A stretch of DNA of 40,095 nt. It comes from an uncultured Flavobacteriales bacterium (lineage in GTDB: Bacteria; Bacteroidota; Bacteroidia; Flavobacteriales_G; Salibacteraceae). Positions 3,882 through 39,765 of this stretch are shown here, piece after piece (the stretch's first letter is position 1; every line of letters begins with the position of its first letter). The position numbers were made by a program, and so were the translations under genes. Location: the NCBI GenBank assembly GCA_937121175.1, contig CAKZKD010000022.1:1-40095 (forward strand), in the 5' to 3' direction. The notes under the pieces were generated by a model, which ran no database searches, was not told the origin of the DNA, and was given only the letters and a program-made list of their open reading frames with translations.

Positions 3882-5132
3882 ATGCAGACAAACAACACTT
3901 TTTCGATTATTTTCTTCACAAGAAAATCTCGTAATGCTAAAAACCAATTATCTATTTATGTTAGAATAACCATTAATAAGCAACGCTCTGAAATTAGCCT
4001 AAAACGAAACGTATCTTTCAAACAATGGGATAACAATAAGAATCGTGGACGAGGAACTTCAGCAAAAATTAGGATTCTAAACAACTATCTTGATTATGTC
4101 TATAATAAACTATTAGATTCCCATAAACAGTTATTAGAAGAAGATAAAATCATTTCTGCATCTACAGTAAAAGATCGCTATCTTGGTAAAGATGATAATC
4201 AAAAAACACTAAAAGAGCTTATTGATTATCATAACTCCAATATGGTTACTGTATTGAAATATGGTACAATGAAGAACTATTATACTACCGAAAAGTATTT
4301 AGTCAAATATTTGATTAAAAAATTAAAAGTACATGATATTTATCTAAAGCAACTAAACTATAGATTCATCATTGATTTTGAACAATATTTAAGAACCTAT
4401 AAGAATTCTAAAAAACAATTAGTTTTAGCCAATAATGGAGTAATGAAACATTTAGAGCGTTTTAAAAAAATGATTAACCTCGCTATTAAATTAGAATGGA
4501 TGGTTAAGAACCCTTTCAGTCAATTTCAATTAAAGTTTAATAAATATGATAGACAATATCTTTCGGAAAGAGAATTAGAACTTATAGAAAGTACTCAATA
4601 TACCAACGAGCGATTAGAAAAGATTAAGGATTGCTTCATTTTTGCTTGTTATACAGGACTATCTTATATAGATGTAAAAGAACTTACCTTAAATCAAATT
4701 ACTAAAGGAATAGATAACAATTACTGGATAATTACCAAACGAGAGAAAACCAATGAAACAGTTAAAATTCCTATTCTCCCAAAAGCCTTGGACATTATTA
4801 ATAAGTATAAGAGTACTTCAAAAAACACTTCTAACAAAACCTTATTACCGCTTTGTTCTAATCAAAAGACAAATGCTTATTTAAAAGAAATAGCTAAGGA
4901 TTGTGATATTCATAAGAATATAACATTTCATGTTGCTCGACATACGTTTGCAACTACTTTGATGTTGTCTAACGGAGTTCCTATGGAAACTGTTTCTAAA
5001 TTATTAGGACATACTAAACTTTCTACTACTCAAATTTATGCTAGAGTAATTGAATCCAAAATTAGTGAAGATATTCAAAATTTACTCAAACGTTTTGAAG
5101 CAAAAAAGCAGAAACAATTATCTGCTATATAG
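3882..5132 (+). CDS. Tyrosine-type site-specific integrase
   Basis: A 416-residue Bacteroidetes integrase. Domain order: N-terminal arm-binding domain (about 1-100, with ISLKRNVSFKQWD), SAM-like core-binding domain (about 105-205), and catalytic domain (about 220-410). The catalytic part contains HVARHTFATT (H-x-x-R) and LLGHTKLSTTQIYARV, which supplies the second His and the nucleophilic Tyr. The first catalytic Arg position reads TGLSYIDV, with Ser in place of Arg; from family knowledge this also occurs in IntDOT-like enzymes. The length is normal and the gene looks intact. It cuts and joins element ends at an attachment site. A direct-repeat pair lies upstream and a long inverted repeat downstream, and the interrupted ParB-like gene lies immediately to the left. 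Confidence 0.9.
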   Translation: MQTNNTFSIIFFTRKSRNAKNQLSIYVRITINKQRSEISLKRNVSFKQWDNNKNRGRGTSAKIRILNNYLDYVYNKLLDSHKQLLEEDKIISASTVKDRYLGKDDNQKTLKELIDYHNSNMVTVLKYGTMKNYYTTEKYLVKYLIKKLKVHDIYLKQLNYRFIIDFEQYLRTYKNSKKQLVLANNGVMKHLERFKKMINLAIKLEWMVKNPFSQFQLKFNKYDRQYLSERELELIESTQYTNERLEKIKDCFIFACYTGLSYIDVKELTLNQITKGIDNNYWIITKREKTNETVKIPILPKALDIINKYKSTSKNTSNKTLLPLCSNQKTNAYLKEIAKDCDIHKNITFHVARHTFATTLMLSNGVPMETVSKLLGHTKLSTTQIYARVIESKISEDIQNLLKRFEAKKQKQLSAI

Positions 5133-5840: not shown

Positions 5841-6157
5841 ATTTTTTTGAATTGTTACAATGAATCCTTGGTTTTACTGGGCTAATTTTCGTTTTTGATG
5901 TAAACTTACTAAAATACAAAATTCCAAAATGGATATATTTAACTGATTTTCAGTTAAATAAACAAAAAGTAACATCGCGTAGCGTGTTACCCTCTTGCTT
6001 CACAAAACTTCGTCTTGTAGACTCACTTATCATAAATGAATTTTTATGATACTTAGCGATAAAAATTGGTATACATTACTTAAAAAAATTGGAACGTCAT
6101 ATTTCATAAAATCTTAAATAAATTTGTTTGTAACGCACCACAACAAAACTGAATTCA
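5841..6157. promoter_or_regulatory. Intergenic region between mobilisation gene and catabolic operon
   Basis: This divergent region holds the promoter area of the BfmA/BtgA gene (minus) and of the catabolic operon (plus). It contains three hairpins: AACTGA/TCAGTT at 5941-5955; a larger imperfect stem at 5969-5990 (GTAACATCGC opposite GCGTGTTAC); and a perfect 8-bp stem ATCATAAA/TTTATGAT at 6029-6050. The proposed operator at 6061-6077 follows, then a TAAATTTG sequence (6119-6126) that fits the Bacteroidetes -7 consensus TAnnTTTG. No clear -33 TTTG was found at the ideal spacing. No small gene was seen here. Confidence 0.45.
6061..6077 (+). promoter_or_regulatory. Proposed operator A (plus operon)
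   Basis: AAAAATTGGTATACATT ends 80 bp before the ATG of the first plus-operon gene. It matches 16 of 17 positions with operator B, which ends 81 bp before the first minus-operon gene and has the same orientation relative to transcription. It lies about 41 bp upstream of a TAAATTTG -7-like box. Binding by the MocR-type regulator encoded at 37358-38848 is inferred. Confidence 0.55.
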
Positions 6158-8398
6158 ATGAAACTTCGAACACTTGCAAAATATACTTACCTATCATTAC
6201 TAACACTTATTATCATTTCTTGTGCTAAACAGCCACAAACAGAACAACAACGCTGGGAGCTACGTGCTGCTAATACAGAGATCTTCAGAGATGATTTTGG
6301 CGTACCACACATATATGGAAAAACGGATGCCGATGCTGTTTTCGGCTTGCTATATGCACAATGCGAAGATGATTTTAACAGAGTAGAGCAAAACTATATC
6401 TGGGCAACCGGGCGATTGGCAGAAGTTGAAGGAGAAGAAGCTTTATATAGCGATTTACGGGCAAAGTTATTTATGACAGAAGAAGAAGCAAAAGCCAATT
6501 ATGATAAAAGTCCTGACTGGCTTAAAGAGTTATGCGATGCCTTTGCTGATGGCATTAATTATTATCTGCATACACATCCTGAGGTAAAACCTCGATTGTT
6601 AACTCGTTTTGAACCATGGATGCCCATGTATTTTAGTGAAGGATCAATAGGAGGAGATATTGAGCGCGTATCTACAAAAGCAATAAAAACTTTTTACGAA
6701 AAGGAACAACCATCGCTTTCATTAAATGAAGTTAACGATGGGTTAATACGTCTCGCTGACAACGAACCAAGAGGTTCCAACGGGTTTGCTATCTCAGGAA
6801 AATTAACCGAATCGGGTAATACAATGTTGCTTATCAATCCACACACATCCTTTTTCTTTCGAGGAGAAGTACATGTAGTTAGTGAAGAAGGGTTAAATGC
6901 TTATGGTGCTGTAACTTGGGGGCAATTTTTTGTTTATCAGGGATTTAACGAAGAAACAGGCTGGATGCATACTTCAACTTATACAGATGTTATAGACGAT
7001 TTTGTTGAAACTGTTGTAAAAAATGAGGATGGACTAAAATATAAATATGGTGATGAATTACGACCAGTAGAAACGTTAGAAGTTGCACTTAAATACAAAG
7101 AAAATGAAGAAATTAAAAAGCGTGACTTCACCATGTATCGTACCCATCACGGACCAATTACACAAAAAATTGACGATAAATGGGTGGCAACAGCTATGAT
7201 GTGGGACCCTGTAAAGGCGCTAACCCAGTCTTTCACCAGAACAAAACTAAACGGGCATAAGGCATTCAGAGAAATGATGAACATACGTACCAACTCGTCC
7301 AACAATACCGTTTATGCCGATGCACAAGGAAATATAGCTTACTATCATGGTAATTTTATTCCTATGAGAGACGTGAAATTTGATTATACAAAGCCTGTAG
7401 ATGGCAGTAATCCAGCCACCGACTGGAAAGGGTTGCACACAGTAGATGAAGCAATCACTGTAATCAACCCTCCTAATGGTTGGATACAAAACTGTAACTC
7501 AACCCCTTTTACAAGTGCCGATGAATATAGCCCAAAGGTTGAAGACTATCCTCGGTACATGTCGAGAAATCGTGAGAACTTTCGTGGTGTACATGCTATA
7601 CGATTACTGAAAAAAGCAGATAAACTAAACCTCGACAAATTGATTGAAATGGCATACGACCCTTATTTACCTGCTTTTGAAGTACTCATTCCAGGATTAG
7701 TAGCGGCATATGACCAATCCCCAAATCCTGAAAAATCATTAAAAGTGCCAATCGAAGTCTTGCGAAACTGGGATTTTGCCGTATCCAAAGAATCTGTAGC
7801 CATGTCATTAGCCCACTATTATGGCATTATGTATTCGCGAGAAGGGAAATCTCCTAAAAAACTAAGCTATATGGAACGTATAAACTACTTCGGTTCCGAA
7901 TCACCGGAGGAAGAACGCCTTGCAATTTTCCAAAAAACTATAGCCAAATTAACAGAAGATTTCGGCAATTGGAATACGCCCTGGGGTGAAATTAACAGAT
8001 ATCAACGACTTAACGGAGATATTAGACAGCCTTTTAATGATGATAAACCAAGTACACCGGTAGGATTGGCATCAGGCAGATGGGGAGCATTAGCCTCTTT
8101 CGGGGCAAGGTCATACAACGGCACAAAACGTATATACGGTACATCAGGTAACAGTTTTGTAGCTGTAGTAGAATTTGGAGATAAACTAAAAGCCAAAAGT
8201 ATGCTGGCAGGTGGTCAAAGTGGCGACCCCGATTCGCCCCATTTTGATGATCAGGTACAACCTTATATAGATATACAATTTAAAGATGTTGCCTACTATC
8301 GGGAAGATGTAGAAAAGAGAGCCAAAAGTACATATCACCCGGGAAAAAAAATAATTAGTACTTCTATAGAAGCACTCCTCACAATTCAACAGAGATAA
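6158..8398 (+). CDS. Penicillin acylase family Ntn-hydrolase lipoprotein
   Basis: A 746-residue member of the penicillin/acyl-homoserine-lactone/aculeacin acylase family (S45). These enzymes hydrolyse an amide bond between an acyl group and an amine. The N-terminus ends in the lipobox IIIS-C (Cys22), so the product is a lipoprotein. The segment FRDDFGVPHIYG (about 43-54) opens the alpha chain. EPRGSNGFAISG contains the G-S junction at Ser207, the autocatalytic nucleophile that becomes the beta-chain N-terminus. Length and order are normal for the family. As first gene of the fifteen-gene operon it sits behind operator A. In this context it would remove N-acyl caps from peptides or amino acids; acyl-homoserine lactones or beta-lactams are alternative substrates. 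The substrate cannot be read from sequence. Confidence 0.88.
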   Translation: MKLRTLAKYTYLSLLTLIIISCAKQPQTEQQRWELRAANTEIFRDDFGVPHIYGKTDADAVFGLLYAQCEDDFNRVEQNYIWATGRLAEVEGEEALYSDLRAKLFMTEEEAKANYDKSPDWLKELCDAFADGINYYLHTHPEVKPRLLTRFEPWMPMYFSEGSIGGDIERVSTKAIKTFYEKEQPSLSLNEVNDGLIRLADNEPRGSNGFAISGKLTESGNTMLLINPHTSFFFRGEVHVVSEEGLNAYGAVTWGQFFVYQGFNEETGWMHTSTYTDVIDDFVETVVKNEDGLKYKYGDELRPVETLEVALKYKENEEIKKRDFTMYRTHHGPITQKIDDKWVATAMMWDPVKALTQSFTRTKLNGHKAFREMMNIRTNSSNNTVYADAQGNIAYYHGNFIPMRDVKFDYTKPVDGSNPATDWKGLHTVDEAITVINPPNGWIQNCNSTPFTSADEYSPKVEDYPRYMSRNRENFRGVHAIRLLKKADKLNLDKLIEMAYDPYLPAFEVLIPGLVAAYDQSPNPEKSLKVPIEVLRNWDFAVSKESVAMSLAHYYGIMYSREGKSPKKLSYMERINYFGSESPEEERLAIFQKTIAKLTEDFGNWNTPWGEINRYQRLNGDIRQPFNDDKPSTPVGLASGRWGALASFGARSYNGTKRIYGTSGNSFVAVVEFGDKLKAKSMLAGGQSGDPDSPHFDDQVQPYIDIQFKDVAYYREDVEKRAKSTYHPGKKIISTSIEALLTIQQR

Positions 8399-27398: not shown

Positions 27399-29261
27399 CT
27401 AATTCTTCCAGTAATTATCTTTCGAATTCGTATCTGGAATATAATCATTCCCTAAGACTATTTTTTGAATTTGTTTTGTTGTTTTCACAATAATCGTCTT
27501 ACTGTCATTTTCTTTCCAAACAGCAGCAGAATAATGGATGTTTTGAGTTGTTTGATCTTTATAAATAACGGTAAGATCTAAAGGCACAGGGAGTTCTCCT
27601 GTTTTTTTAATGGTAATCTGGTAAGAATCTTTGGTTATTTTTTCCAGTTTTTCAATCCCCAAATCAGGAGATGCATTTTCAAAAAACCATGGTTTCCAAA
27701 ACCAATTCAAATTTTGCTGAGACGTTTGATTTACATGATAAAAGAAATCTAACGGTGTAGGGTGTTTACCTCTCCACGTTTCTATATAAGCTGCCAAACA
27801 TTTTTTAAACAATTCCTCACCCAATATATCTTGCAACACATATAAGCCTACGGCAGGTTTCATATACAAATTGAAATAGGAAGTACCTCCTCTTAACATC
27901 GTAGAATTAACCATAGATGCCACATTCCTGTCTGTATTCGCATATTTACTCATACTTCTGGCATAACGGGTTAATCGGTTTAAGGTAGGTTCGGTTTTTT
28001 GCTGATATTTATAAGGCATCATGGCAGCAAAAGCTTCATCCATCCACGCCTGTTCCGTTTCATTAGTCAATACATAAAACGGAAAGTAATTGTGTGCAAT
28101 TTCATGCGCTGTAACATCTACGGTTCGCCCTCTGTTGTCTGCCGAAGGATCATTGGCAATCATCGGGTATTCCATACCGCTGGTTCCATTGGTACCATTA
28201 AATAAAGTCATTGTTGGAAAAGGAAACGGATAGGGAAGTTCGGTAGAAAAATAGTGTATGGATTTTTTGGCAAGTTCGGCAACCTCTATAAAATCTTTGG
28301 ATGCTACCGGGTAAACGGCCTCTATATAAATATCTTTTTCGGTAACCCCTTTTAGCGATGTTCCATCCCAAAGAAAATGATCACTTACCCCAAAGGCAAC
28401 ATCAGAAACGTGATTTGCTTCAAATATCCATTTATTATTGCGAGTGATGGGTTTTCCTGAACGATAATCATTTTGAGTAACGATAGAAACAACAGCATCT
28501 CTCTTTTTTGCTTTTTGATATTTCTTATAAATGCTTTTAGCCAATACTTCGTTCGGGTTTTGAAGCATCCCGGTACCCCATACTAAATAGCCTTTAGGTG
28601 CGGTAACGGTGTAATTATAATTGCCCAAATCGTAATAAAATTCTTGCCCGCCTGAATGGATATTTCTATCCCACCCATTGAGATCGTCATATACAGCCAC
28701 CTTAGGAAACCACTGCCCTAAAAAGAACGAGGTTTCATCTTTGGCTCCCATACGAATATTACTTTTAGAAGGAATGGAAAAACTCCACGCAACTTTTATT
28801 GTAACCGAAGAAGAAGATGCTATGGGTTGCTTCATATCTGCCACTAATTGTGTTCCTTCTATACGATACGGCGTAATCTGGTTATTAATTTTCAATTCTT
28901 TAATAACAACCCCGTTATGCACATCATCAGGGTGTACAACATCATCTCTTATAGTTCCTTTTTTATATAAATTTTGAAAAATATGAAAAACAAGTTGTTT
29001 TAAAGAATCAGGACTGTTGTTTTGATAGTGAATGCTTTCTGTTCCGATAAGTTTTTTTTCACCGGGGATGATTTCTGCATTAATATCATACGAAGCTGTA
29101 TTTTGCCAGTACTTTGCTCCTGGCACACCTAAGGTTGTTCTAGTTTCTTTTTGTAAACCTTTATCAAAATTTTTATGAGTAGGTAATTTTTGTTGACTTT
29201 TTCCAATTAGAGGAAACAACAATACAAAACTATATATTGCAGCCCTTATACATATATTCAT
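27399..29261 (-). CDS. M1 family aminopeptidase, exported
   Basis: A gluzincin of about 620 residues. The ATG at 29261 opens directly with a signal peptide (MNICIRAAIYSFVLLFPLIG); an upstream in-frame ATG at 29285 would overlap the preceding gene by 20 bp. The zinc site is complete: H-E-I-A-H followed after 18 residues by Glu in WMDEAFA. The exopeptidase motif appears as GTSGMEYPM, a variant of GxMEN in which Tyr-Pro replaces Asn. An N-terminal saddle domain (about 50-260) precedes the catalytic domain; the C-terminal helical domain is short. The variant motif may alter N-terminal recognition. It is the last gene of the minus operon. Confidence 0.87.
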   Translation of the reverse strand: MNICIRAAIYSFVLLFPLIGKSQQKLPTHKNFDKGLQKETRTTLGVPGAKYWQNTASYDINAEIIPGEKKLIGTESIHYQNNSPDSLKQLVFHIFQNLYKKGTIRDDVVHPDDVHNGVVIKELKINNQITPYRIEGTQLVADMKQPIASSSSVTIKVAWSFSIPSKSNIRMGAKDETSFFLGQWFPKVAVYDDLNGWDRNIHSGGQEFYYDLGNYNYTVTAPKGYLVWGTGMLQNPNEVLAKSIYKKYQKAKKRDAVVSIVTQNDYRSGKPITRNNKWIFEANHVSDVAFGVSDHFLWDGTSLKGVTEKDIYIEAVYPVASKDFIEVAELAKKSIHYFSTELPYPFPFPTMTLFNGTNGTSGMEYPMIANDPSADNRGRTVDVTAHEIAHNYFPFYVLTNETEQAWMDEAFAAMMPYKYQQKTEPTLNRLTRYARSMSKYANTDRNVASMVNSTMLRGGTSYFNLYMKPAVGLYVLQDILGEELFKKCLAAYIETWRGKHPTPLDFFYHVNQTSQQNLNWFWKPWFFENASPDLGIEKLEKITKDSYQITIKKTGELPVPLDLTVIYKDQTTQNIHYSAAVWKENDSKTIIVKTTKQIQKIVLGNDYIPDTNSKDNYWKN

Positions 29262-29265
29262 CTTA

Positions 29266-30411
29266 TTATTGTTTTTTACGCGCATTGTATTTATCCATTA
29301 TTTTCAGTGTCTCTTTTACAGGGAGTGCTTTCATGGTTCTTCCTTTTTGCCCTGTTATATCGGTTGCCATAAACAGTGAGTTGTAAATAGCTTCTTCAGT
29401 AGCTTCCAGCGTTGCCAAAAACAAAGGCGACATATAATCATTAGCCACTTCTATCGTAGCTTTCTCTCTTTCTTTTGCACTGTATGGAATGCGAAGTTGG
29501 GGGTGCGTGCTAAAGGCAATACTGTAATCGCCACTGCCATTGGATGAAAATGATCCTACTTTTCCAAAAGCCAGAAAAGAACGTTTTGCCAGGCGTTTTA
29601 AATTGCGAGCAGATACGGGGGCATCTGTGGCAATGACAATCATACACGAGCCATCCACCACATAAGGAACATCATTTGCCATATAATAATTGTTGAGTTC
29701 TTTGCCAACCGGAGCACCATTGATGGTAAGAATGCCTCCAAAATTGGTTTGTACAAGCACACCTACGGTATAACCGCCCTTTTCTTTGGGCAACACACGA
29801 GATGAAGTACCGATACCTCCTTTAAAGCCTAAAGCTCTGGTGCCGGTGCCTGCGCCTACATTGCCTTCGGCAACTTTTCCGGTGCTTGCTGTTTGAATCG
29901 CTTCAAAAACATGTTGGCCTTTTACATGGCGGCCTCTGATATCATTGAGCCAGCCATCATTGGTTTCGCCAACCACGGGGTTTACAGATCGAATCTTTTT
30001 ATTTTCGGGGATGGATAAGGTATAATCAACTAAACCGTTTGCCACCAAAAAGGCATTAAGGGTATTGGTGAGGGTAATGGGTGTTTCGATATTGCCAAGC
30101 TCCTCGATTTGTGTAAACCCAAGTGCTTTCCCAAACCCGTTGCCGACAAATACGGCTGCGGGTACTTTTTCCTGAAAGATATTCCCCTGATGCGGTAAAA
30201 TGACAGTTACTCCGGTACGAATGGAGTCGCCAACGATCAATGTTTTTTGTCCAACCGAAACGCCTTGCACATCGGTGATGGCATTGTATTTTCCGGGGGT
30301 GAGGATGCCGGGTTCAATGCCCAAATCTCTGGCTCTTTGCCGCTGATTTTGTGCTTGGGCAATTGAAAGAGCTCCAATCAATACTATTAAAATATATAGA
30401 TGCTTTTTCAT
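29266..30411 (-). CDS. P1 family peptidase, DmpA-type L-aminopeptidase/D-amidase, exported
   Basis: A 381-residue member of the DmpA/BapA family. The precursor self-cleaves before a Ser to give two chains. The junction is visible as VVDGSCMIVIATDAPVS, with nucleophile Ser255. Upstream GGIGTSSRV and VQTNFGGILTINGAPVG are conserved. The signal peptide ends near SIAQAQ. DmpA releases N-terminal L-residues from peptides and also hydrolyses D-amino acid amides and esters, and relatives cleave beta-amino acid peptides (family knowledge). It shares a 4-bp ATGA overlap with the S12 gene upstream, so the two are translationally coupled. In this cluster it is the third unrelated fold able to handle D-residues at N-termini. 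Confidence 0.9.
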   Translation of the reverse strand: MKKHLYILIVLIGALSIAQAQNQRQRARDLGIEPGILTPGKYNAITDVQGVSVGQKTLIVGDSIRTGVTVILPHQGNIFQEKVPAAVFVGNGFGKALGFTQIEELGNIETPITLTNTLNAFLVANGLVDYTLSIPENKKIRSVNPVVGETNDGWLNDIRGRHVKGQHVFEAIQTASTGKVAEGNVGAGTGTRALGFKGGIGTSSRVLPKEKGGYTVGVLVQTNFGGILTINGAPVGKELNNYYMANDVPYVVDGSCMIVIATDAPVSARNLKRLAKRSFLAFGKVGSFSSNGSGDYSIAFSTHPQLRIPYSAKEREKATIEVANDYMSPLFLATLEATEEAIYNSLFMATDITGQKGRTMKALPVKETLKIMDKYNARKKQ

Positions 30412-32120
30412 TCGTTTAAATTTTGCTTTTCAAACCATACGTTTTTGGCCCTGCTGTTTGAGACAAAAGCTCCAATTACATTGCCTTTTTCATTTCGCTT
30501 CAATTTAACGAACTGAAAAGCACTATTGCCTTTTAGCACATCTTTTTTAATGATTTCTATTTCAAAATTTCCGTGCCTGATATGATTCCCAATCAGGTTG
30601 TTATCGTCTATCGAAACATAATAGCTGGTTTTTAGCTCCGGGCTAAAATATTCACCGGCAATGGATTGTAATAGTTCTTTTGAGTAGGGGGTAGATACGG
30701 GTTCAAATGCTTTGAAAACAGTAGAGGAGTTGCCATTAGTTACCGTCATTGTTTTTTCTTTTTTATCCGATTCAAAACGGACTTTTACCGAACTTCCGGA
30801 TAATAGAAACTCATTCTTTTTAACAGGGATTAGCGGAGTTTCATTATTCTCTGAACGAACATATCTTAGTGTATCATTTTTTAAATATATTTTACGCAAA
30901 CCATTACTTCCATCGTCCCAATAAGAAGCAATATATTTGCTGAGTGTTTTGGTAGGAAGTTTTATACCCTTAGGTGTAGTTGTTGCTTTTGTATCACCTT
31001 GTTTATCTGTGAGCAGTATTTCAGCAATTTTATTTGCTTTACTGCCGGGCGATGCGGTCGAAAAATTGGTGATAATGGCTATACTCAGTTTTTCATCCGG
31101 GTAGGTGCCGATAGATGACCGGTAGCCACCAATGGAGCCACCATGCTGCACGCGTTTAACGCCTTTAAAGGAGTCGAGCCGAACACCAAAAGCATAATCA
31201 TTATAAGCTCCATTATTTAATGGGTCGATTGTAAGCATCATCTTAAAAGCCTTTTCCCATCCGGATTTGGGAGTAGAAAAATTTTCCAGCCAGGTTAATA
31301 AATCGGCGGTAGTTGAGTGCATATTTCCGGAGCCTACATAGCCCCAATATTCAACAGCCCTGTCGAACTCGTTTTTTTGTGTGTAATAGGATGTAGCATT
31401 GTTGGGAACCACCCTGTTGTACTTATCTTCTATATAAGTATCCGTCATTCCCAAAGGGTCAAAGACTGATTTTTTCATCCAGCTGGTAAACTCTTCTCCG
31501 GTTACTTCCTCAATAATTTTTGCCATAAACATATAGCCGGTATTGCAGTACAAAAACTCACTTCCCGGTTCAAAGTTCAGATTGCGCTGGTCTTGCATAA
31601 TTCGGTATAAATCTTCATTGGTTCTGGTGTCATCACCTCGCCATCCGGCCAGGGCAAACAAGGTATGCAGGCTTCTCAATCCGCTGGTGTGGTGCAGCAT
31701 TTGCCTGATGGTAATCTTTTCTGCAAATTCGGGCAATTCGGGCATATATTTTTTAATGTTATCATCAACAGAAAGTTTTCCCTGAAGGTGAAGCCGTACA
31801 ATGCCCATCGCTGTGAATTGTTTAGAAACGGAGGCTACATTAAAGCGTGTTCCTGTTGAATTAGGAATAAGATATTCTAAACTTGCCAATCCATAAGCTT
31901 TTGAAAATATCACCTTGCCGCCTTTCATCACCCCTATGGCTCCTCCGGGGTGATTAGGAACATTCCACTGGCTGAAAATTTCATCAATTTTTTGATATTC
32001 CGTAGCTGTTAACTGTGCATAGCTCGCTTGAAAAAAAACACATAAAAGAAAGGTCAATAGTGCTTTTTTAACTACTTTCTGAAGTATTTTATAAGATGAA
32101 TTTACGTAAATAGTTTGCAT
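30408..32120 (-). CDS. S12 serine hydrolase with C-terminal beta repeats, exported
   Basis: A 570-residue S12 enzyme. A 17-residue leader precedes the hydrophobic core, and the signal peptide ends near ASYAQ; a start a few codons later is possible. Motifs: S-V-S-K (Ser97-Lys100), Y-C-N in FLYCNTGYM (Cys replacing the usual Ser) and H-G-G in VQHGGSIGG. Two C-terminal beta repeats begin LSKYIASYWDDGS and LQSIAGEYFSPEL. It is the paralogue of the 542-residue lipoprotein at 11445-13073 and, like it, is a direct neighbour of a D-aminoacylase gene. It follows that gene by 22 bp and overlaps dmpA-like by 4 bp. Confidence 0.85.
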   Translation of the reverse strand: MQTIYVNSSYKILQKVVKKALLTFLLCVFFQASYAQLTATEYQKIDEIFSQWNVPNHPGGAIGVMKGGKVIFSKAYGLASLEYLIPNSTGTRFNVASVSKQFTAMGIVRLHLQGKLSVDDNIKKYMPELPEFAEKITIRQMLHHTSGLRSLHTLFALAGWRGDDTRTNEDLYRIMQDQRNLNFEPGSEFLYCNTGYMFMAKIIEEVTGEEFTSWMKKSVFDPLGMTDTYIEDKYNRVVPNNATSYYTQKNEFDRAVEYWGYVGSGNMHSTTADLLTWLENFSTPKSGWEKAFKMMLTIDPLNNGAYNDYAFGVRLDSFKGVKRVQHGGSIGGYRSSIGTYPDEKLSIAIITNFSTASPGSKANKIAEILLTDKQGDTKATTTPKGIKLPTKTLSKYIASYWDDGSNGLRKIYLKNDTLRYVRSENNETPLIPVKKNEFLLSGSSVKVRFESDKKEKTMTVTNGNSSTVFKAFEPVSTPYSKELLQSIAGEYFSPELKTSYYVSIDDNNLIGNHIRHGNFEIEIIKKDVLKGNSAFQFVKLKRNEKGNVIGAFVSNSRAKNVWFEKQNLNE

Positions 32121-32142
32121 TTTCTTGAATTTTAATCCCTTA

Positions 32143-33720
32143 TTATTTGTTTTTTCTTAACACTTTTCCTGCTTTTATGTTTTGAAATACACCGTTGTCG
32201 ATTGAAAGTTTTCCATTAATTATTACATAAGAGATTCCTTCAGGATATTGGTGTGGTTTTTCAAAAGTTGCTTTGTCAATAACGGTTTTAGGGTCGAAGA
32301 TTACAATATCTGCTTTCATTTGCTCTTTAATCTGCCCTCTGTCTTTTAGTCCAAGCGTAGTTGCAGGCAGTTTTGTCATTTTATAGATAGCCTCCGATAA
32401 TGAAATCGTTCCTTTTTCACGAACATAATGCCCTAAAACTCTTGGAAAAGTACCGTACCACCGTGGGTGTGGGTGTCCCATTCCGGGTTTTACCAACCTT
32501 CCATCCGAGGCAATCATAGTTTGAGGGTGCTTCATAATGCGTTCTACATCACCTTCATCCATAGCATGAAAAACACAAGATGCACCACCATTCAGCTGGG
32601 CTTCAATCACTAAGTCTGCACCGTTTTCCACCGTTGGTTTTAGCCCTTTTTGTTCACACCAGTATTTTAAAGTTTTCCCTTCCAATTCTGGCATCCATCT
32701 TACTTTGGCAAATTGCACTCTGTTTAAGTCGCTGCCTCCGCGGTCATTTAAAATATTAAAAATGATCCCTGATTTTATACTATCACGCAGCGCAGGCTCT
32801 GACACTCTCTGCTTAAAAGCCTCATTTCCTCCGGCTCTTGCCCAACTGGGAATTAGTACAGATATACCGGTATAACTTGCATTGTATGGGTATTGATCCA
32901 TTTTGATGTCAAGGTCTGCTGCCCTGGCAGAATCTACCATAGCCAGTGTTCTGGTACTTTTACCCCACATAGGTTTGCCGATGACTTTATGGTGGGTGAG
33001 TATCACCGGGATTTCTGCTTCTTTAGAAATAACGATGGCTTCCTGAACCGCATCAAATAAGCCCAGCCCTTCTTCACGCAAATGCGAGGTGTAGATACCA
33101 CCTTCGATTGATGCTACTTTTGAAAGCTCTATAACCTCATCTACTTTCGAAAAGGCTCCGGGTAAATATTTAAGCCCGGTCGAAATTCCATAGGCTCCTT
33201 CCTGCATGGCCTGCCGAACCTGTGCTTTCATTTGGCTGAGTTCGCTTTCGGTGGGAGCCCTGTTTTCCAGCTTCATTACATTTTTTCTTACCCTGTTGTG
33301 TCCTACCAGGTAGGCCACGTTCATCCCTACCCCTATCTGATCGAGCGTGTCCAGATATTGGCCAAAAGGCCAGGGGCCGCCACCGTCAGGGCCGCCGAGA
33401 GCTGTTGTTACACCTTGTCTTACATGGCTTTCGCAATTTGAAAGTTTAAGAATGGGGTCTAAGTGCGCATGCATATCAATAAATCCGGGGGCAACAGCCA
33501 TGCCTTTGGCATCTACCTTTCGGGAAGCTTCGGCGGTTGACAAATCACCGATTTTCACAATCAGTCCATCTTTGATTCCGATATCGGTTTTTACCGATTC
33601 TTTTCCTGAGCCATCGTACACATTTCCGTTTAGGATAATGGTGTCATAGCTTTGTGTGTTGTTACAACTCCATAATGTTAAGATTATGAGAAAAAAAGGG
33701 AGAATCGCTTTAGTATTCAT
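32143..33720 (-). CDS. N-acyl-D-amino-acid deacylase lipoprotein
   Basis: A 525-residue amidohydrolase with lipobox LWS-C (Cys19). The metal site begins PGFIDMHAHLD (His84, His86). GISTGLKYLPG, TSHLREEG, LTHHKVIGKPMWG and IASDGRLVKPGMGHPHPRW follow the D-aminoacylase order. It differs from its paralogue at 13093-14571 in having a longer insertion around residues 330-400, and probably prefers other N-acyl-D-amino acids. It lies 11 bp after the aminotransferase gene, so the D-amino acids it frees could be used directly by that enzyme once taken up. Confidence 0.88.
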   Translation of the reverse strand: MNTKAILPFFLIILTLWSCNNTQSYDTIILNGNVYDGSGKESVKTDIGIKDGLIVKIGDLSTAEASRKVDAKGMAVAPGFIDMHAHLDPILKLSNCESHVRQGVTTALGGPDGGGPWPFGQYLDTLDQIGVGMNVAYLVGHNRVRKNVMKLENRAPTESELSQMKAQVRQAMQEGAYGISTGLKYLPGAFSKVDEVIELSKVASIEGGIYTSHLREEGLGLFDAVQEAIVISKEAEIPVILTHHKVIGKPMWGKSTRTLAMVDSARAADLDIKMDQYPYNASYTGISVLIPSWARAGGNEAFKQRVSEPALRDSIKSGIIFNILNDRGGSDLNRVQFAKVRWMPELEGKTLKYWCEQKGLKPTVENGADLVIEAQLNGGASCVFHAMDEGDVERIMKHPQTMIASDGRLVKPGMGHPHPRWYGTFPRVLGHYVREKGTISLSEAIYKMTKLPATTLGLKDRGQIKEQMKADIVIFDPKTVIDKATFEKPHQYPEGISYVIINGKLSIDNGVFQNIKAGKVLRKNK

Positions 33721-33731
33721 GGTATTTTGTT

Positions 33732-34598
33732 TTAAGTAATAACTTTTTTGTAACTGTTTTTTAGAATCAAAAATGCCTCTTGGAGTTTTTTGGTAACCGA
33801 GCCTACATTTCTATCTTGATAAAACAGGTAGTCATCTATTTGTGTTATCGCTCCAATTTGTGTAGTCGTTCCAGTTAAAAAGGCTTCGTCCATTTTTATA
33901 ATATCTTCTTTTGAAATGGCTTCTTCTTTGACTTCTATACCACAATCTTTGCATAATTGAATCACGATTTGTCGTGTAATTCCATCAAGAATATATTCAT
34001 CGGCAGGATGCGTATACACAACCCCTTTTTTGACAAAAAAGATATTGCTGTGCGAACCTTCGGTTATAAAACCATCTCGAAAAAAAACAGCTTCATGAGC
34101 TTCCTGTTTAATAGCATGATCATTTGCCATAACATTTCCTAATAAAGAGATCATTTTAATATCGCAACGATGCCATCGATAATCGGGCATTGTAATTATT
34201 TTAATTGCATTCTTATTAATACCAGGAAATTTTTTGGGCAGCGCATACATCATTAATGTAGGTACTGCATGATCAGGAAAATCATGTTTTCTTGGAGCCA
34301 CACCTCTAGTTACCTGAATATAAATAAGGCACTCACCTTTATCTATATCAGAAACTTTGAGCAGATCATCTATTTTACCAGGAAGTGTCGTTGTATCAAA
34401 ATCTATATGAATTTTATCAAGACATTCAGACAAACGGTTCAAATGTTCTTTTCCATAAAAGAAAGAACCGTTTTTCTGAGTCATCACTTCATAAATTCCA
34501 TCACCAAATAAAAAGCCCCTATCAAATACAGATATTTTAGCATTTTTATAATCTAAAATCTCATCATTCAGATATACTTTTTTGGGATAATTCCTCAT
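33732..34598 (-). CDS. dat: D-amino acid aminotransferase
   Basis: A 288-residue cytosolic fold-type IV PLP transaminase. Diagnostic D-specific features are Arg98 with R-K-H of TRGVAPRKHDFP (Arg103, His105; substrate carboxylate binding in Bacillus D-AAT), the PLP lysine in RCDIKMISLLGN (Lys148), and ITEGSHSN with Glu180. These separate it from branched-chain L-aminotransferases. It converts D-amino acids with 2-oxoglutarate into 2-oxo acids and D-glutamate. The D-glutamate made here would feed the DgcN/DgcA pair of the opposite operon, a good reason for shared control. It starts 21 bp after the dehydrogenase gene. Confidence 0.9.
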   Translation of the reverse strand: MRNYPKKVYLNDEILDYKNAKISVFDRGFLFGDGIYEVMTQKNGSFFYGKEHLNRLSECLDKIHIDFDTTTLPGKIDDLLKVSDIDKGECLIYIQVTRGVAPRKHDFPDHAVPTLMMYALPKKFPGINKNAIKIITMPDYRWHRCDIKMISLLGNVMANDHAIKQEAHEAVFFRDGFITEGSHSNIFFVKKGVVYTHPADEYILDGITRQIVIQLCKDCGIEVKEEAISKEDIIKMDEAFLTGTTTQIGAITQIDDYLFYQDRNVGSVTKKLQEAFLILKNSYKKVIT

Positions 34599-34619
34599 TT
34601 TTAATTATTAAAATTAGTA

Positions 34620-35615
34620 CTAATTAATATAACCCGGAACCGGTATCGTTGCCATAGTATGTAACCCCGGAGATGCTTTTAAAATACTTTTAACACTGTT
34701 AATGGTAATGGCACAGGTAGCAATATCTCCATTGACACCTGTACCTATTTCCGAAACAAATGAAGGTTCTCCTTTTATAGTAACCCTGTCAAAAGATCTG
34801 GGCTCTCCGATAGCTGCTTTAAAATGCATTTTAATTTTACAATCCCCATTGATATATCCGTGGGAAATCTGCTCCACACCACGGGCATCTCCCTCTTTGA
34901 TATCCATTGATGGAACACTTATGTTGTTTTCAGCAATTACAGGTTGAAGATCTTCTGTTACATTGTCTAATTTAAAGCCTACACTATTTGCCAAAAAATA
35001 AACAGATTCTTTTAATCCAACGTGTCGTAATGTACCGGTCTGCTCTTTGGCTTTGAATGCCACGAGATCAAGGCCGGCACCGATTTTTTGCTGAAAAGGG
35101 ATTCTTCGTGGTGTGGCATCCTGAAAACGCTCTACGGTAATACTTTCTACGTCTTTACATACCGAACTCAATACTGATGGAAGGTAGTCCATCAAAAACC
35201 CGGGGTTAACACCAGTACCCAAACAAGCTACATTATATTTTTTGCATATTGCATCTATACTTTTACTTGCTTTTGGATTTTCTTCCCATGGGTGTGATAG
35301 CTCTTCACATGTTGAAACAATGGGTATACCATGTTTAGCTATATTCTCTATTTGCGATTCTAATTTTTGAATGCTTGACACGGTAGTTAATATAGCAGCA
35401 GCAGGTTTTTCCGGAAGGTTTTGCAAAGCTTCTTCAATAGTGTTTTGAATCAATACACCAGAAGATTCTCCATTAATAAGCTCTCCAAAATCCTGATTCC
35501 TTAAATCGTTATTAATATCAACAGCAGCAATAGTTTTCACCTCTTCTTTATCGTCTATATATTTACCTATTTGCTGACCCAAAGGCCCTAGTCCAATTTG
35601 AATTACAGTAATCAT
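34620..35615 (-). CDS. DapB-fold dehydrogenase (2,4-diaminopentanoate dehydrogenase-like)
   Basis: A 331-residue cytosolic NAD(P)-dependent enzyme and first gene of the minus operon, 81 bp downstream of operator B. The Rossmann motif is IGLGPLGQQIG (Gly8, Gly10, Gly13). CLGTGVNPGFLMDYLP is characteristic of the group containing 2,4-diaminopentanoate dehydrogenase (Ord) and other DapB_N proteins. Ord works in clostridial ornithine oxidation, which runs through D-ornithine, but the aminomutase subunits OraS/OraE are not present in the window. A role as an amine/imine oxidoreductase on a D-amino acid-derived intermediate is more likely here. Exact substrate unknown. Confidence 0.75.
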   Translation of the reverse strand: MITVIQIGLGPLGQQIGKYIDDKEEVKTIAAVDINNDLRNQDFGELINGESSGVLIQNTIEEALQNLPEKPAAAILTTVSSIQKLESQIENIAKHGIPIVSTCEELSHPWEENPKASKSIDAICKKYNVACLGTGVNPGFLMDYLPSVLSSVCKDVESITVERFQDATPRRIPFQQKIGAGLDLVAFKAKEQTGTLRHVGLKESVYFLANSVGFKLDNVTEDLQPVIAENNISVPSMDIKEGDARGVEQISHGYINGDCKIKMHFKAAIGEPRSFDRVTIKGEPSFVSEIGTGVNGDIATCAITINSVKSILKASPGLHTMATIPVPGYIN

Positions 35616-35696
35616 AATTTGTTATTATTTTGTTTTTACAATTTAATTTATTGTTATTATTTATTTCTCTGCAATGTAAAATGTATTCTACTATAC

Positions 35697-35713
35697 AATG
35701 CATACCAATTTTT
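35697..35713 (-). promoter_or_regulatory. Proposed operator B (minus operon)
   Basis: On the minus strand the sequence reads AAAAATTGGTATGCATT, 16 of 17 identical to operator A. It ends 81 bp before the ATG of the first minus-operon gene, versus 80 bp for operator A, in the same orientation. It contains ATACCA on the plus strand, the half-site known for GabR of Bacillus (family knowledge). Confidence 0.55.
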
Positions 35714-35858
35714 TTTTTTTGACATATAACTCCTTTTTTGAGAAATTTAGAGAATACATCAACAACTTTTGACTATTATAAATTAAAGATTTTTTAATAT
35801 AAACCCCATCAAACAATTCTACTTTACAACTAAATTGGTTTGCCACAAAAGTAATTTA

Positions 35859-35868
35859 TGGTATACCA
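35859..35868. promoter_or_regulatory. Proposed operator C (palindrome TGGTATACCA)
   Basis: A perfect 10-bp palindrome sharing the TGGTATAC core with operators A and B and extending on the minus strand to CTTTTGGTATACCAT. It faces the regulator side of the region, so autoregulation of the MocR-type gene is possible. Confidence 0.45.
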
Positions 35869-35963: not shown

Positions 35964-36041
35964 ATGATTAAAAAAATGTTTTTGTGTGTTTTTATACTAT
36001 TGCTTACCAGTAATTTTTTTACTCCCTCTTTCTCTTTTTAA
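35964..36041 (+). pseudogene. Orphan signal-peptide reading frame (25 aa)
   Basis: An ATG frame encodes MIKKMFLCVFILLLTSNFFT followed by PSFSF and a TAA stop: a complete Sec-type signal peptide with nothing after it. It begins 95 bp downstream of palindrome C and ends 43 bp before the IS left end. Because the IS shows a clean target duplication, the insertion itself did not remove the rest of the gene. It may be the relic of a lost secreted gene, or a genuine small exported peptide. Confidence 0.4.
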
Positions 36042-36151: not shown

Positions 36152-36418
36152 ATGAAAAAAAGCAAGTTTACCGAGAGCCAGATCATCAAGGCACTGAAAG
36201 AGAACGAACAGGGAAGAAGTGTGGGCGATGTTTCCCGCGAGATGGGCATCGACAAGAGCACTTTCTACTATTGGCGCAAGAAGTACGGCGGCATGGAGGT
36301 CGCCCATATGAAGCGATTAAAGGAACTGGAAGAGGAGAACCGTAAGCTCAAGCAGATGTACGCCGATGTCAGTCTGGACGTGCGTATGCTCAAGGATGTA
36401 CTGTCAAAAAAGTTCTAG
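36152..36418 (+). CDS. IS3-family transposase OrfA
   Basis: An 88-residue DNA-binding subunit. The helix-turn-helix reads RSVGDVSREMGIDKSTFYYWRKKYGGM, followed by a leucine-zipper helix (MKRLKELEEENRKLKQMYAD). Before its stop the gene contains the slippery heptamer A-AAA-AAG (36406-36412). A -1 shift there enters the OrfB frame and yields the OrfAB transposase, the standard IS3 control. Confidence 0.92.
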   Translation: MKKSKFTESQIIKALKENEQGRSVGDVSREMGIDKSTFYYWRKKYGGMEVAHMKRLKELEEENRKLKQMYADVSLDVRMLKDVLSKKF

Positions 36419-37290
36419 GGCCTTCCGACAAGAAGCACCGTGCCAAATACCTTCAGGAAGCCTATTCGGTCTGTGTATCACGTTCCTGTCAGGTCATAGG
36501 TCTTGCCCGTTCGATCTGGTACTACCATACCAAGAGGGACGATACGGAAGTAATCGATGCGCTATCACAGTTGGCTGAAGAACTGCCCACCAGGGGTTTC
36601 GAGGTATATTACAAGCGGCTGCGTCGCGAAGGCCATAAATGGAACAGGAAGCGTGTGCTTCGGGTCTATAGGTCGATGAACCTGAAGTTGAGAAGAAAGC
36701 ACAAAAAGAGATTGCCATCAAGGGTAAAGAACCCGTTGGAAGCACCAACGGAACTCAATGAGGTCTGGAGCATGGACTTCATGGCCGACGTTCTCTCCGA
36801 TGGAAGAAAGGTCAGGGTGTTCAACGTGATGGACGATTGCAACCGTGAGGCACTGGCCATGGACATTGGCCTGAACTATCCCGCCAAAAAGGTAGTGGAG
36901 ACCTTGGGGCATTTGGAAGAGGAGATAGGTCTGCCAAAGACCATACGGTGCGACAACGGCCCGGAGTTCATCTCGAAGACCTTGTCGCAATGGTGCAAGA
37001 GCAAAAGGGTGGAACTTCGGTTCATACAACCGGGCAAGCCCATGCAGAACGGATTTATGGAAAGGCTCAACAGGTTTTACAGGGAAGACGTACTTGATGC
37101 CTATTGGTTCAACGACCTTCATCAGATAAGAACATTGACCGAGAAATGGCGAAAGGATTACAATACGGAACATCCACATTCATCATTGGGGGATATGCCG
37201 CCAAGGGAATACAAAGACCGTTTCGGGGAAGAATTCTTCCCCGAAACGATGAACATTGATAATAATTTTATGAATTTAGCAACGTCCTAA
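36412..37290 (+). CDS. IS3-family transposase OrfB (integrase core)
   Basis: The frame is open from the slippery site: VLGPSDKKHRAKYLQEAYSV, then CVSRSCQVIGLARSIWYYH, then the catalytic core, 293 codons in all. The first downstream ATG-like start (near 36571) would miss the HTH_21 region, so expression as the -1 frameshift fusion is more likely. DDE residues are visible: Asp in NEVWSMDFMAD, Asp in IRCDNGPEF and Glu in QNGFMERLNR. Full length, no internal stop. Confidence 0.92.
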   Translation, partial: VLGPSDKKHRAKYLQEAYSVCVSRSCQVIGLARSIWYYHTKRDDTEVIDALSQLAEELPTRGFEVYYKRLRREGHKWNRKRVLRVYRSMNLKLRRKHKKRLPSRVKNPLEAPTELNEVWSMDFMADVLSDGRKVRVFNVMDDCNREALAMDIGLNYPAKKVVETLGHLEEEIGLPKTIRCDNGPEFISKTLSQWCKSKRVELRFIQPGKPMQNGFMERLNRFYREDVLDAYWFNDLHQIRTLTEKWRKDYNTEHPHSSLGDMPPREYKDRFGEEFFPETMNIDNNFMNLATS

Positions 37291-37357: not shown

Positions 37358-38848
37358 ATGAAAGATAGGCTAAATAATATTATTTTTTCTAACGGATTTA
37401 ATTATAAAAAAGATGGTCTTAGCGTTTATATGAAATTACGTAATGCTATCGCTAAAGCTATTATTGAAAAAAAATTACCTAAAAATTATCAATTACCACC
37501 GACGAGAGTTTTGGCTTTAGACTTAAAACTATCTAGAACCACTATAATTAAGGCTTATGAGATACTTTGTGCTGAACAATATATAAGTTCAATACAGGGA
37601 TCGGGGTATTTTGTAAATGAGGTAACATTTAAGAAGACATCAGATACCATTAAAACTGATATAAAACAGGATAGTATTACTCCAGTTTCCAAAAGAGCTA
37701 TGCAGTTTCGGAAAAATGTGTATTTAATGAATCGAGGAGAGTATAAAGGAATAGCTTTTAGACCCGGTTTACCACCACTTGATATTTTTCCTGTGAGACA
37801 ATGGCAAAGCTTAACAAATAAGTATTGGAAAGATGTAACTTTTTCAGATCTATCATATCGACATACACTTGGATTAGACAGTTTAAGGAAGAATATAGCA
37901 GCCTATTTAAAAATTTATAGAAATATTCAATGCGATTATCAACAAATAGTTATTGTAACCGGATCTTTGCATTCGCTCTCTATTTTGGGAGACTTGCTTT
38001 TAAACAATGGAGATGAAGTAATTTTGGAAAACCCTACGTATGCGAATGCGATCGCACTATTTAAGAGTTTTAAAGCTAAGATTATTCCAACTGAAATAGA
38101 TAAAGAAGGGTTATCTATCAAGAGTATAAAAAATATTAAACTAAAACAACCTAAATTAATCTATACTACTCCATCAAATCAATACCCTACTGGTGTACAA
38201 ATGAGCCTTGATAGGCGATTAGAAATTTTAAAATGGGCTCATGAAAAAAATTGTCTGATTATAGAAGATGATTATGATCACGAATTTAGCAATTGGAATA
38301 ACCCCATTCCATCAATTTTTAGCTTAGATAAGGGAAATAGGGTAGTTTATCAGGGCACCTTTAACAAGCTTTTGCATCCTTCTATTCGATTGGGTTACTT
38401 AATTATCCCTCCAAATTACATAGAAGATATAAAAGCGATGTATGAACAGACGTTACGATTTATTTCTCCTGTGAGTCAAAGAGTCATGTCTGATTTCATT
38501 GAAAGAGATTATTTAAGTCAGCACCTACGAAAAGTAATTCAAATTTCTAACAATCGAAAATTATTTTTCACCAATCAATTTGAAAATATTTTTGAAGAAG
38601 ATATTAAACTTCACCCTGTTACTAATGGTTTACATTTTATAGCAAAGCTTCCAAATCATTTAGATGATGTTAAAGTTTCAGAATTTCTAGGTAAAAATGA
38701 GATTGTAGCATTTCCATATAGCAAATATTTTTTTAAAGGAAAAAAGGATAACGGATTGCTTATGGGGTTTTCTTCTGTCAGTAAACCAATAATCAAGCAA
38801 AAATTAGAAAAAATGAAGCACCTTTTTAAAGATTTTAAGTATACTTAA
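37358..38848 (+). CDS. MocR/GabR-type transcriptional regulator (GntR wHTH + aminotransferase domain)
   Basis: A 496-residue regulator. The N-terminal winged helix (about 1-88) shows KNYQLPPTRVLALDLKLSRT and AYEILCAEQYISSIQGSGYF. A linker and a fold-type I aminotransferase domain follow, with TPSNQYPTGV, IIEDDYDHEF and YQGTFNKLLHPSIRLGY, where Lys337 is the expected PLP lysine. MocR proteins sense amino acids or vitamin B6 through PLP and control nearby catabolic genes. Operators A-C share ATACCA/TGGTAT elements like the GabR half-site, so this protein is the likely regulator of both operons. A ligand such as a D-amino acid that forms a PLP aldimine is inferred. The IS lies just upstream of its start. 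Confidence 0.88.
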   Translation: MKDRLNNIIFSNGFNYKKDGLSVYMKLRNAIAKAIIEKKLPKNYQLPPTRVLALDLKLSRTTIIKAYEILCAEQYISSIQGSGYFVNEVTFKKTSDTIKTDIKQDSITPVSKRAMQFRKNVYLMNRGEYKGIAFRPGLPPLDIFPVRQWQSLTNKYWKDVTFSDLSYRHTLGLDSLRKNIAAYLKIYRNIQCDYQQIVIVTGSLHSLSILGDLLLNNGDEVILENPTYANAIALFKSFKAKIIPTEIDKEGLSIKSIKNIKLKQPKLIYTTPSNQYPTGVQMSLDRRLEILKWAHEKNCLIIEDDYDHEFSNWNNPIPSIFSLDKGNRVVYQGTFNKLLHPSIRLGYLIIPPNYIEDIKAMYEQTLRFISPVSQRVMSDFIERDYLSQHLRKVIQISNNRKLFFTNQFENIFEEDIKLHPVTNGLHFIAKLPNHLDDVKVSEFLGKNEIVAFPYSKYFFKGKKDNGLLMGFSSVSKPIIKQKLEKMKHLFKDFKYT

Positions 38849-39325: not shown

Positions 39326-39765
39326 GTGTTTTTTATCATTTTATTTACTAATTTAAAGCTATGTAATATATTAGAAAACAGTAGGTTATCAGTCGTATTT
39401 GTCATTAGGAAGCTCACTTCTAAAATTGACACCATTAAGATTTACGCCAGCGTAACAGTTGACGGCAAAAGAGCCGAATTCAACCTAAATCGGGAATTGT
39501 CGGTATCCCTTTGGGACGAAAAACGCAAAAGAGGTAAGGGATTTTCGAAGTACGTTATTTCCTTAAACAAGTATTTAGACCAAGTTTTTACCAGATTACA
39601 TGAAGCGCATCGGCAACTTTTACAAGAGGAAGTTGACATTACCTCTGCGGGAATAAAGGCTCGGTATTTAGGAGAAGATAAAAAGTGCAAAACCTTACTC
39701 GATTTGATAACCTATCTAACACTTCTATGCATACCATGCTGAGAAGAAGGGAAGTTGAAAAATAA
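39326..39765 (+). pseudogene. Frameshifted 5' fragment of a second tyrosine integrase
   Basis: The product matches the arm-binding domain of Bacteroidetes integrases: IYASVTVDGKRAEFNLNREL, SVSLWDEKRKRGKGFS, LNKYLDQVFTRLHEAHRQLL and IKARYLGEDKKCKTLLDLIT. It parallels residues 24-125 of the integrase at 3882-5132. A one-base deletion between 39716 and 39717 changes the register; restoring it gives YHNTSMHTMLRRREVEK, aligned to YHNSNM in the intact enzyme, before a stop at 39763-39765. The core-binding and catalytic domains are absent downstream. It is a dead remnant of an element that used the tRNA-Pro site, or of a tandem island. Confidence 0.8.

Follow-up and report, generated by a model that had tools for sequence, protein, structure and literature searches.

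The 40,095-nt stretch analyzed here (the window) carries two long convergent operons, a short segment with transposase genes and a gene for a MocR-family regulator. The features discussed below are the following.

6066-6074, plus strand: distal box of the plus operon, TTGGTATAC, within the 17-mer at 6061-6077 and 23 bp upstream of the second box
6089-6097, plus strand: promoter-proximal box of the plus operon, TTGGAACGT, 23 bp past the distal box and containing TTGGAAC
6119-6126, plus strand: -7-like element of the plus operon, TAAATTTG, of sigma-A type (TAnnTTTG), 30 nt past the proximal-box start
6158-27349, plus strand: plus operon, 15 genes (family scans)
27399-35615, minus strand: minus operon, six genes, convergent to the plus operon (family scans)
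35671-35678, minus strand: -7-like element of the minus operon, TACATTGC, SM5-like (TAnnTTGY), 30 nt past the proximal-box start
35700-35708, minus strand: promoter-proximal box of the minus operon, TTGGTATGC, within the 17-mer at 35697-35713 and conserved in L012, L013 and L015-L018
35724-35732, minus strand: degenerate distal box of the minus operon, GAGTTATAT, at a spacing of 24
35835-35866, plus strand: third tandem-repeat-like site, TTGGTTTGC-N14-ATGGTATAC, in the inserted segment and facing right
35964-36041, plus strand: 25-codon remnant similar to the start of a TonB receptor (SusC-like) gene (similarity match)
36152-37290, plus strand: transposase genes HTH_Tnp_1 and rve (Pfam), between operator and regulator
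37358-38848, plus strand: MocR-family regulator with a GntR-type winged helix-turn-helix (wHTH) and a class I aminotransferase-like domain (Pfam)

Within the plus operon, family scans recognize penicillin-amidase-like, M55 D-aminopeptidase-like, DUF1611/DgcN-like and L-Ala-D/L-Glu-epimerase-like genes, four beta-lactamase-fold hydrolases, a D-acylase-like amidohydrolase, S9, S15 and M20 peptidases, and alanine-racemase-like and D-cysteine-desulfhydrase-like genes. The minus operon encodes a 2,4-diaminopentanoate-dehydrogenase-like protein, a D-amino-acid-transaminase-like protein (this family being its best match, slightly under the cut-off), a second D-acylase-like amidohydrolase, a beta-lactamase-fold hydrolase, an S58 peptidase and an M1-like peptidase. 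The same scans found neither gabT nor gabD in the two operons, and pdx genes are absent from both operons and from the scanned genes of orthologous loci. This gene content points to the use of D-amino-acid-rich peptides or amides as the common theme.

An earlier note on this DNA had pointed to one 17-mer before both operons, and both copies exist as described: AAAAATTGGTATACATT occupies 6061-6077 on the plus strand, its 3' end 80 bp from the ATG at 6158, and AAAAATTGGTATGCATT occupies 35713-35697 on the minus strand, 81 bp from the ATG at 35615, with 16 of 17 bases identical at the checked positions and start codons taken from the open reading frames. Across the 3.73-Mb genome, AAAAATTGGTATRCATT at fewer than two mismatches returns just these two 17-mers; two mismatches add three matches, which is the level of the reversed-pattern control, and the core AATTGGTATRC has five further copies, each within an ORF of at least 100 aa. 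By this genome search, the motif is no common feature of unrelated genes, which was the first condition that the earlier note had named as refuting.

On sequence grounds, each of the two 17-mers represents one box of a larger unit, the tandem direct repeat TTGGTATGC-N14-TTGGTATGC, with a 23-bp period and an A-rich spacer. The single 17-mer had been proposed as an operator- or activator-type site; the operator-type character stands, but the true unit is the 23-bp-period repeat. In Aquimarina (L081/L082), the orthologous gene is preceded by the two-box layout of the plus operon: both boxes and the -7 element are conserved, TTGGAATG stands at the position of the proximal box, and TTGGTAT(A/G)C-N14-TTGGAA before the amidase is common to Aquimarina and the window. 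At the minus operon, relatives carry TTGTTATAT or CTGTTATGC 23 bp above TTGGTATGC, in place of the window's GAGTTATAT at 24 bp. When a position matrix trained solely on other genomes, with the window held out, was run over the 40 kb, the plus and minus promoters ranked first and second (23.6 and 22.9, the plus operon at rank 1), the next independent site scored 7.5, and the proximal box of the minus operon had the highest single-box score in the window. Because the plus copy of the 17-mer is a distal box and the minus copy a proximal box, the near-equal distances of 80 and 81 bp, to which the earlier note had attached meaning, are coincidental; the copies start 53 and 30 nt, respectively, upstream of the conserved -7-like element, and a functional role for equal distance to the ATG was rejected on these differing offsets. 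Lone copies of TTGGTATGC or TTGGTATAC also occur within coding sequence near target operons (L019:4532, L023:3285, L158:6897), at similar positions in the first gene for two of the three.

The proximal box keeps a fixed relation to the promoter. At 13 of 13 sites, TAnnTT follows the proximal-box start by 30-31 nt, compared with two sites at the next-best offset and a maximum of six in 2000 shuffles, a contrast to be read with the sites being partly kin, the shuffles preserving base composition only and the pattern having been spotted by eye before counting. The minus-operon element is retained at 30 nt in relatives, and at the distant, newly found sites L164/L166 the offset is not clearly retained. 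The earlier remark that a matched -7 box is lacking is therefore incomplete, as a -7-like box does stand 30-31 nt from the proximal-box start. Its form varies: plus-operon and distant-operon sites have TAnnTTT-type boxes, and most minus-operon sites have the SM5-like TAnnTTG(C), with TAnnTTGY matched in the window and L015-L018. TAnnTTTG is the sigma-A-type consensus and TAnnTTGY is the flavobacterial sigma motif SM5, whose genes include those for amino-acid scavenging (PMC9723704); the minus-operon elements would accordingly suit SM5, and the plus-operon element is of the ordinary TAnnTTTG form, a sigma assignment that we infer from the match. Among the aligned sites, no -33 element is conserved at normal spacing at the target operons. 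Inverted repeats were also seen here, GCTCTA...TAGAGC between proximal box and -7 element in L015, L016 and L018, and TTGGTATGCC...GCCTACCAATT spanning the promoter at 9800-9860 of L017.

The product of 37358-38848 is the likely binder of the repeat, in line with the earlier note. Its N-terminal wHTH scores 30.4 bits against the Pfam GntR model (cut-off 27), its C-terminal domain scores 64 bits against Aminotran_1_2, and its best solved relative is Bacillus subtilis GabR, matched over the full length (E 5.5e-50), with K337 aligned to K312, the pyridoxal phosphate (PLP) lysine of GabR. The TTGGTATGC direct repeats, with their TGG core and 23-bp period, are of the MocR operator type. Against NCBIfam models, the protein passes the PdxR cut-off (364.7 against 320 bits) and does not reach that of GabR (271.3 against 600 bits). 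R207 and R430 are the GABA-contact residues of GabR; they align with N230 and K456, and since Arg is thus replaced by Asn and Lys, GABA is an unlikely signal. Orthologues down to about 51% identity retain the PLP lysine. In a sister group (L008, L009, L010, L164-L166), Arg takes its place (TFNRLLHP or similar), and the tandem TTGGTAT operator is kept despite the Arg in L008, L009 and L164-L166, where upstream sequence was checked; these sister regulators may work without a PLP Schiff base.

The first minus-operon gene has no orthologue among 34 family or 41 order relatives, and regulators in the window's own family and order are just 43-45% identical, which makes close-relative footprinting impossible, and distant carriers were used. 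In L012, L013 and L015-L018, TTGGTATGC precedes the orthologue of the first minus-operon gene, and in L012 and L015-L018 an orthologous regulator lies divergently about 30 bp from the motif; the near-identical copies L011 and L080 were left out of the independent cases. In more distant carriers (L019, L021-L023; 61-67% identity for the first gene), the motif heads a longer operon and adjoins the regulator, and in those covered by family scans the dehydrogenase gene comes after M14-type peptidase and TonB-receptor-type genes. A complete TTGGTATGC-N14-TTGGTATGC adjoins regulators of 51-53% identity in L124-L126, and a complete two-box repeat also adjoins regulators of 45% identity in L008 and L009. 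The site is missing at the orthologous operon in G045 and G050, which have no close regulator, and L014 and L020 have neither the site at the locus nor a regulator match in the genome. Orthologous minus-type operons, then, retain the motif where the genome retains the regulator, which bears on the note's second refuting condition, a lack of the motif at orthologous operons. Four amidase orthologues in other settings (L083-L086) have no operator upstream, so the amidase is not a universal regulon member, and an operator shared before every amidase was rejected.

A blind scan for the perfect two-box repeat in the order that includes Hyunsoonleella (395 genomes) gave five matches in four genomes and none for the reversed pattern. 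Two of the matches were already known Hyunsoonleella sites and three lay in new genomes, each of the three with a divergent MocR gene (38-43% identity) as its immediate neighbor; as two of the three are closely similar, they represent about two independent events. The looser TTGGTATRC-N13..15-TTGG gave mixed matches, weakly above control, so specificity resides in the full two-box pattern. Adjacency of site and MocR gene extends over regulators of 38-74% identity in different genomes.

We consider it very probable that the tandem repeat is a MocR activator operator for both D-amino-acid/peptide catabolism operons, a reading built on sequence comparison. From the observed sequence, spacing, conservation and regulator linkage, binding, activation and a ligand can be proposed as follows. 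By analogy with published GabR and MocR sites, the regulator would bind both boxes and activate. It would do so as a head-to-tail dimer, its two winged-helix heads separated by about two helical turns and each occupying one of the boxes. With the proximal box 30-31 nt above the -7 element, it would occupy the position at which the -33 region is contacted and stand in for the missing -33, activating both operons and likely repressing its own gene where that gene is divergent. As the signal we propose an amino acid or D-amino acid, which would react with the PLP carried by Lys337. A broader picture, of a Bacteroidota MocR group of PLP-dependent D-amino-acid sensors with a Lys-to-Arg sister group that keeps the operator, binding a tandem repeat fixed 30-31 nt above the -7 box and so switching on -33-less promoters of two types (sigma-A TAnnTTTG in the plus operon, SM5-like TAnnTTGY in the minus operon), is possible but offered tentatively.

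The main competitor keeps the same MocR regulator on the site and makes it a repressor relieved by ligand. MocR repressors are known, EnuR of ectoine catabolism being the precedent (PMC8739950), and the distance of about 19-43 bp between the boxes and the downstream start codon of the regulator gene in relatives would suit repression of that gene. At the target operons, however, the boxes do not overlap the -7 element and start but stay upstream of them, 30-31 nt away at every site, and the lack of a conserved -33 element at normal spacing fits activation. Preferring activation thus depends on box position, and we regard repression as unlikely, though still deserving some weight. That another regulator recognizes the site and that its linkage to MocR genes is indirect seems very improbable: MocR binding is deduced from sequence, but in different genomes the site adjoins a MocR gene across the whole identity range of these regulators, and its box core is identical to the box published for GabR.

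Bacteroidota -33 elements usually begin with TTG, and the minus promoter of the window can be read as TTG-N20-TACATTTT, which would make TTGGTAT the -33 element of both promoters. TACATTTT, however, is not conserved as a -7 candidate among relatives, the boxes are paired and extend to TTGGTATGC, and the conserved TAnnTT lies 27 nt past the TTG, too long a distance and one held across the 13 sites. The -33 reading was rejected on this spacing, in agreement with the earlier view that TTGGTAT is not such an element, and we give it hardly any credence. A chance likeness of AT-rich leaders is more remote still: the window is AT-rich, and at three mismatches its matches are about as many as in its shuffles, but conservation in orthologous leaders and the MocR linkage in the blind scan already refute this explanation.

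The activator operator proposed here resembles that of GabR in several respects. GabR activates gabTD and represses gabR (PMC6522883), and its box, ATACCA, occurs as direct repeats (PMC4494728); TGGTAT is the complement of that box. In the published description, two 6-nt direct repeats flank an inverted repeat within 41 bp (PMC9452892); no details of the site were found in the 2019 Sci Rep paper. Shared with GabR are the wHTH and aminotransferase-like domains, the PLP lysine, the ATACCA/TGGTAT box, the direct repeats and, in relatives of the window, the divergent regulator gene. The system here differs in its longer boxes, 23-bp period and lack of a conserved inverted box, in N230/K456 at the positions of R207/R430, in its non-GABA targets and in scoring far under the NCBIfam GabR cut-off. 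It is like PdxR, the group of MocR-like regulators of pyridoxine biosynthesis, in passing that family's cut-off, but the PdxR box is AAAGTGGW(-/T)CTA (PMC4494728), and the targets here are catabolic, with no pyridoxine/PLP biosynthesis gene in either operon. In a MocR survey, sites typically consist of direct repeats with TGG or TGT cores, separated by one or several turns of the helix (PMC5320631), and two direct boxes with a TGG core at helix-turn spacing resemble its two-direct-box class. That survey covers just 19 Bacteroidetes regulons, and its main text includes neither TTGGTAT nor peptidase regulons (PMC5320631); our literature search likewise found no MocR regulon for peptidase or D-amino-acid genes in Bacteroidota. 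The type of MocR switch is already known, but its targets here and the precise arrangement of the promoters seem not to have been described. These results provide a concrete, testable candidate operator and regulon for a MocR protein in marine Bacteroidota, where described MocR sites are few, and would link MocR control to the breakdown of D-amino-acid-rich peptides, a side of organic-matter recycling by bacteria that is little understood. In this phylum, whose promoters are unlike those of E. coli, the fixed distance from box to -7 element may offer a way to recognize such activator promoters.

The regulator's surroundings have been rearranged in the window. The minus-operon region is similar to L012 and relatives only as far as about 35730, where the inserted segment joins, which indicates that an insertion moved the regulator gene away from the divergent promoter it once had and clipped the distal box of the minus operon; with that box degenerate, regulation in this host may be weakened or unlike that of the relatives. 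A search for terminal inverted repeats of the insertion element gave nothing convincing. On a larger scale, window positions 2416-39145 match a contig of an Aequorivita MAG at 99.86% identity across 36,731 bp, and tyrosine-recombinase genes lie close to both ends (3882-5132; partial, 39326-39742). Taken with a family that lacks the first minus-operon gene, this identity means that either the cluster is mobile and recently transferred or the contig is misbinned. Within the inserted segment, the third tandem-repeat-like site has a matrix score of 15.7, against a maximum of 12.4 in 20 random windows, and the receptor remnant matches the start of L023:4022-7114 at 70.6% identity over 17 aa (E 0.002). 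Site and remnant probably once headed a transporter operon that was lost when the insertion element cut it.
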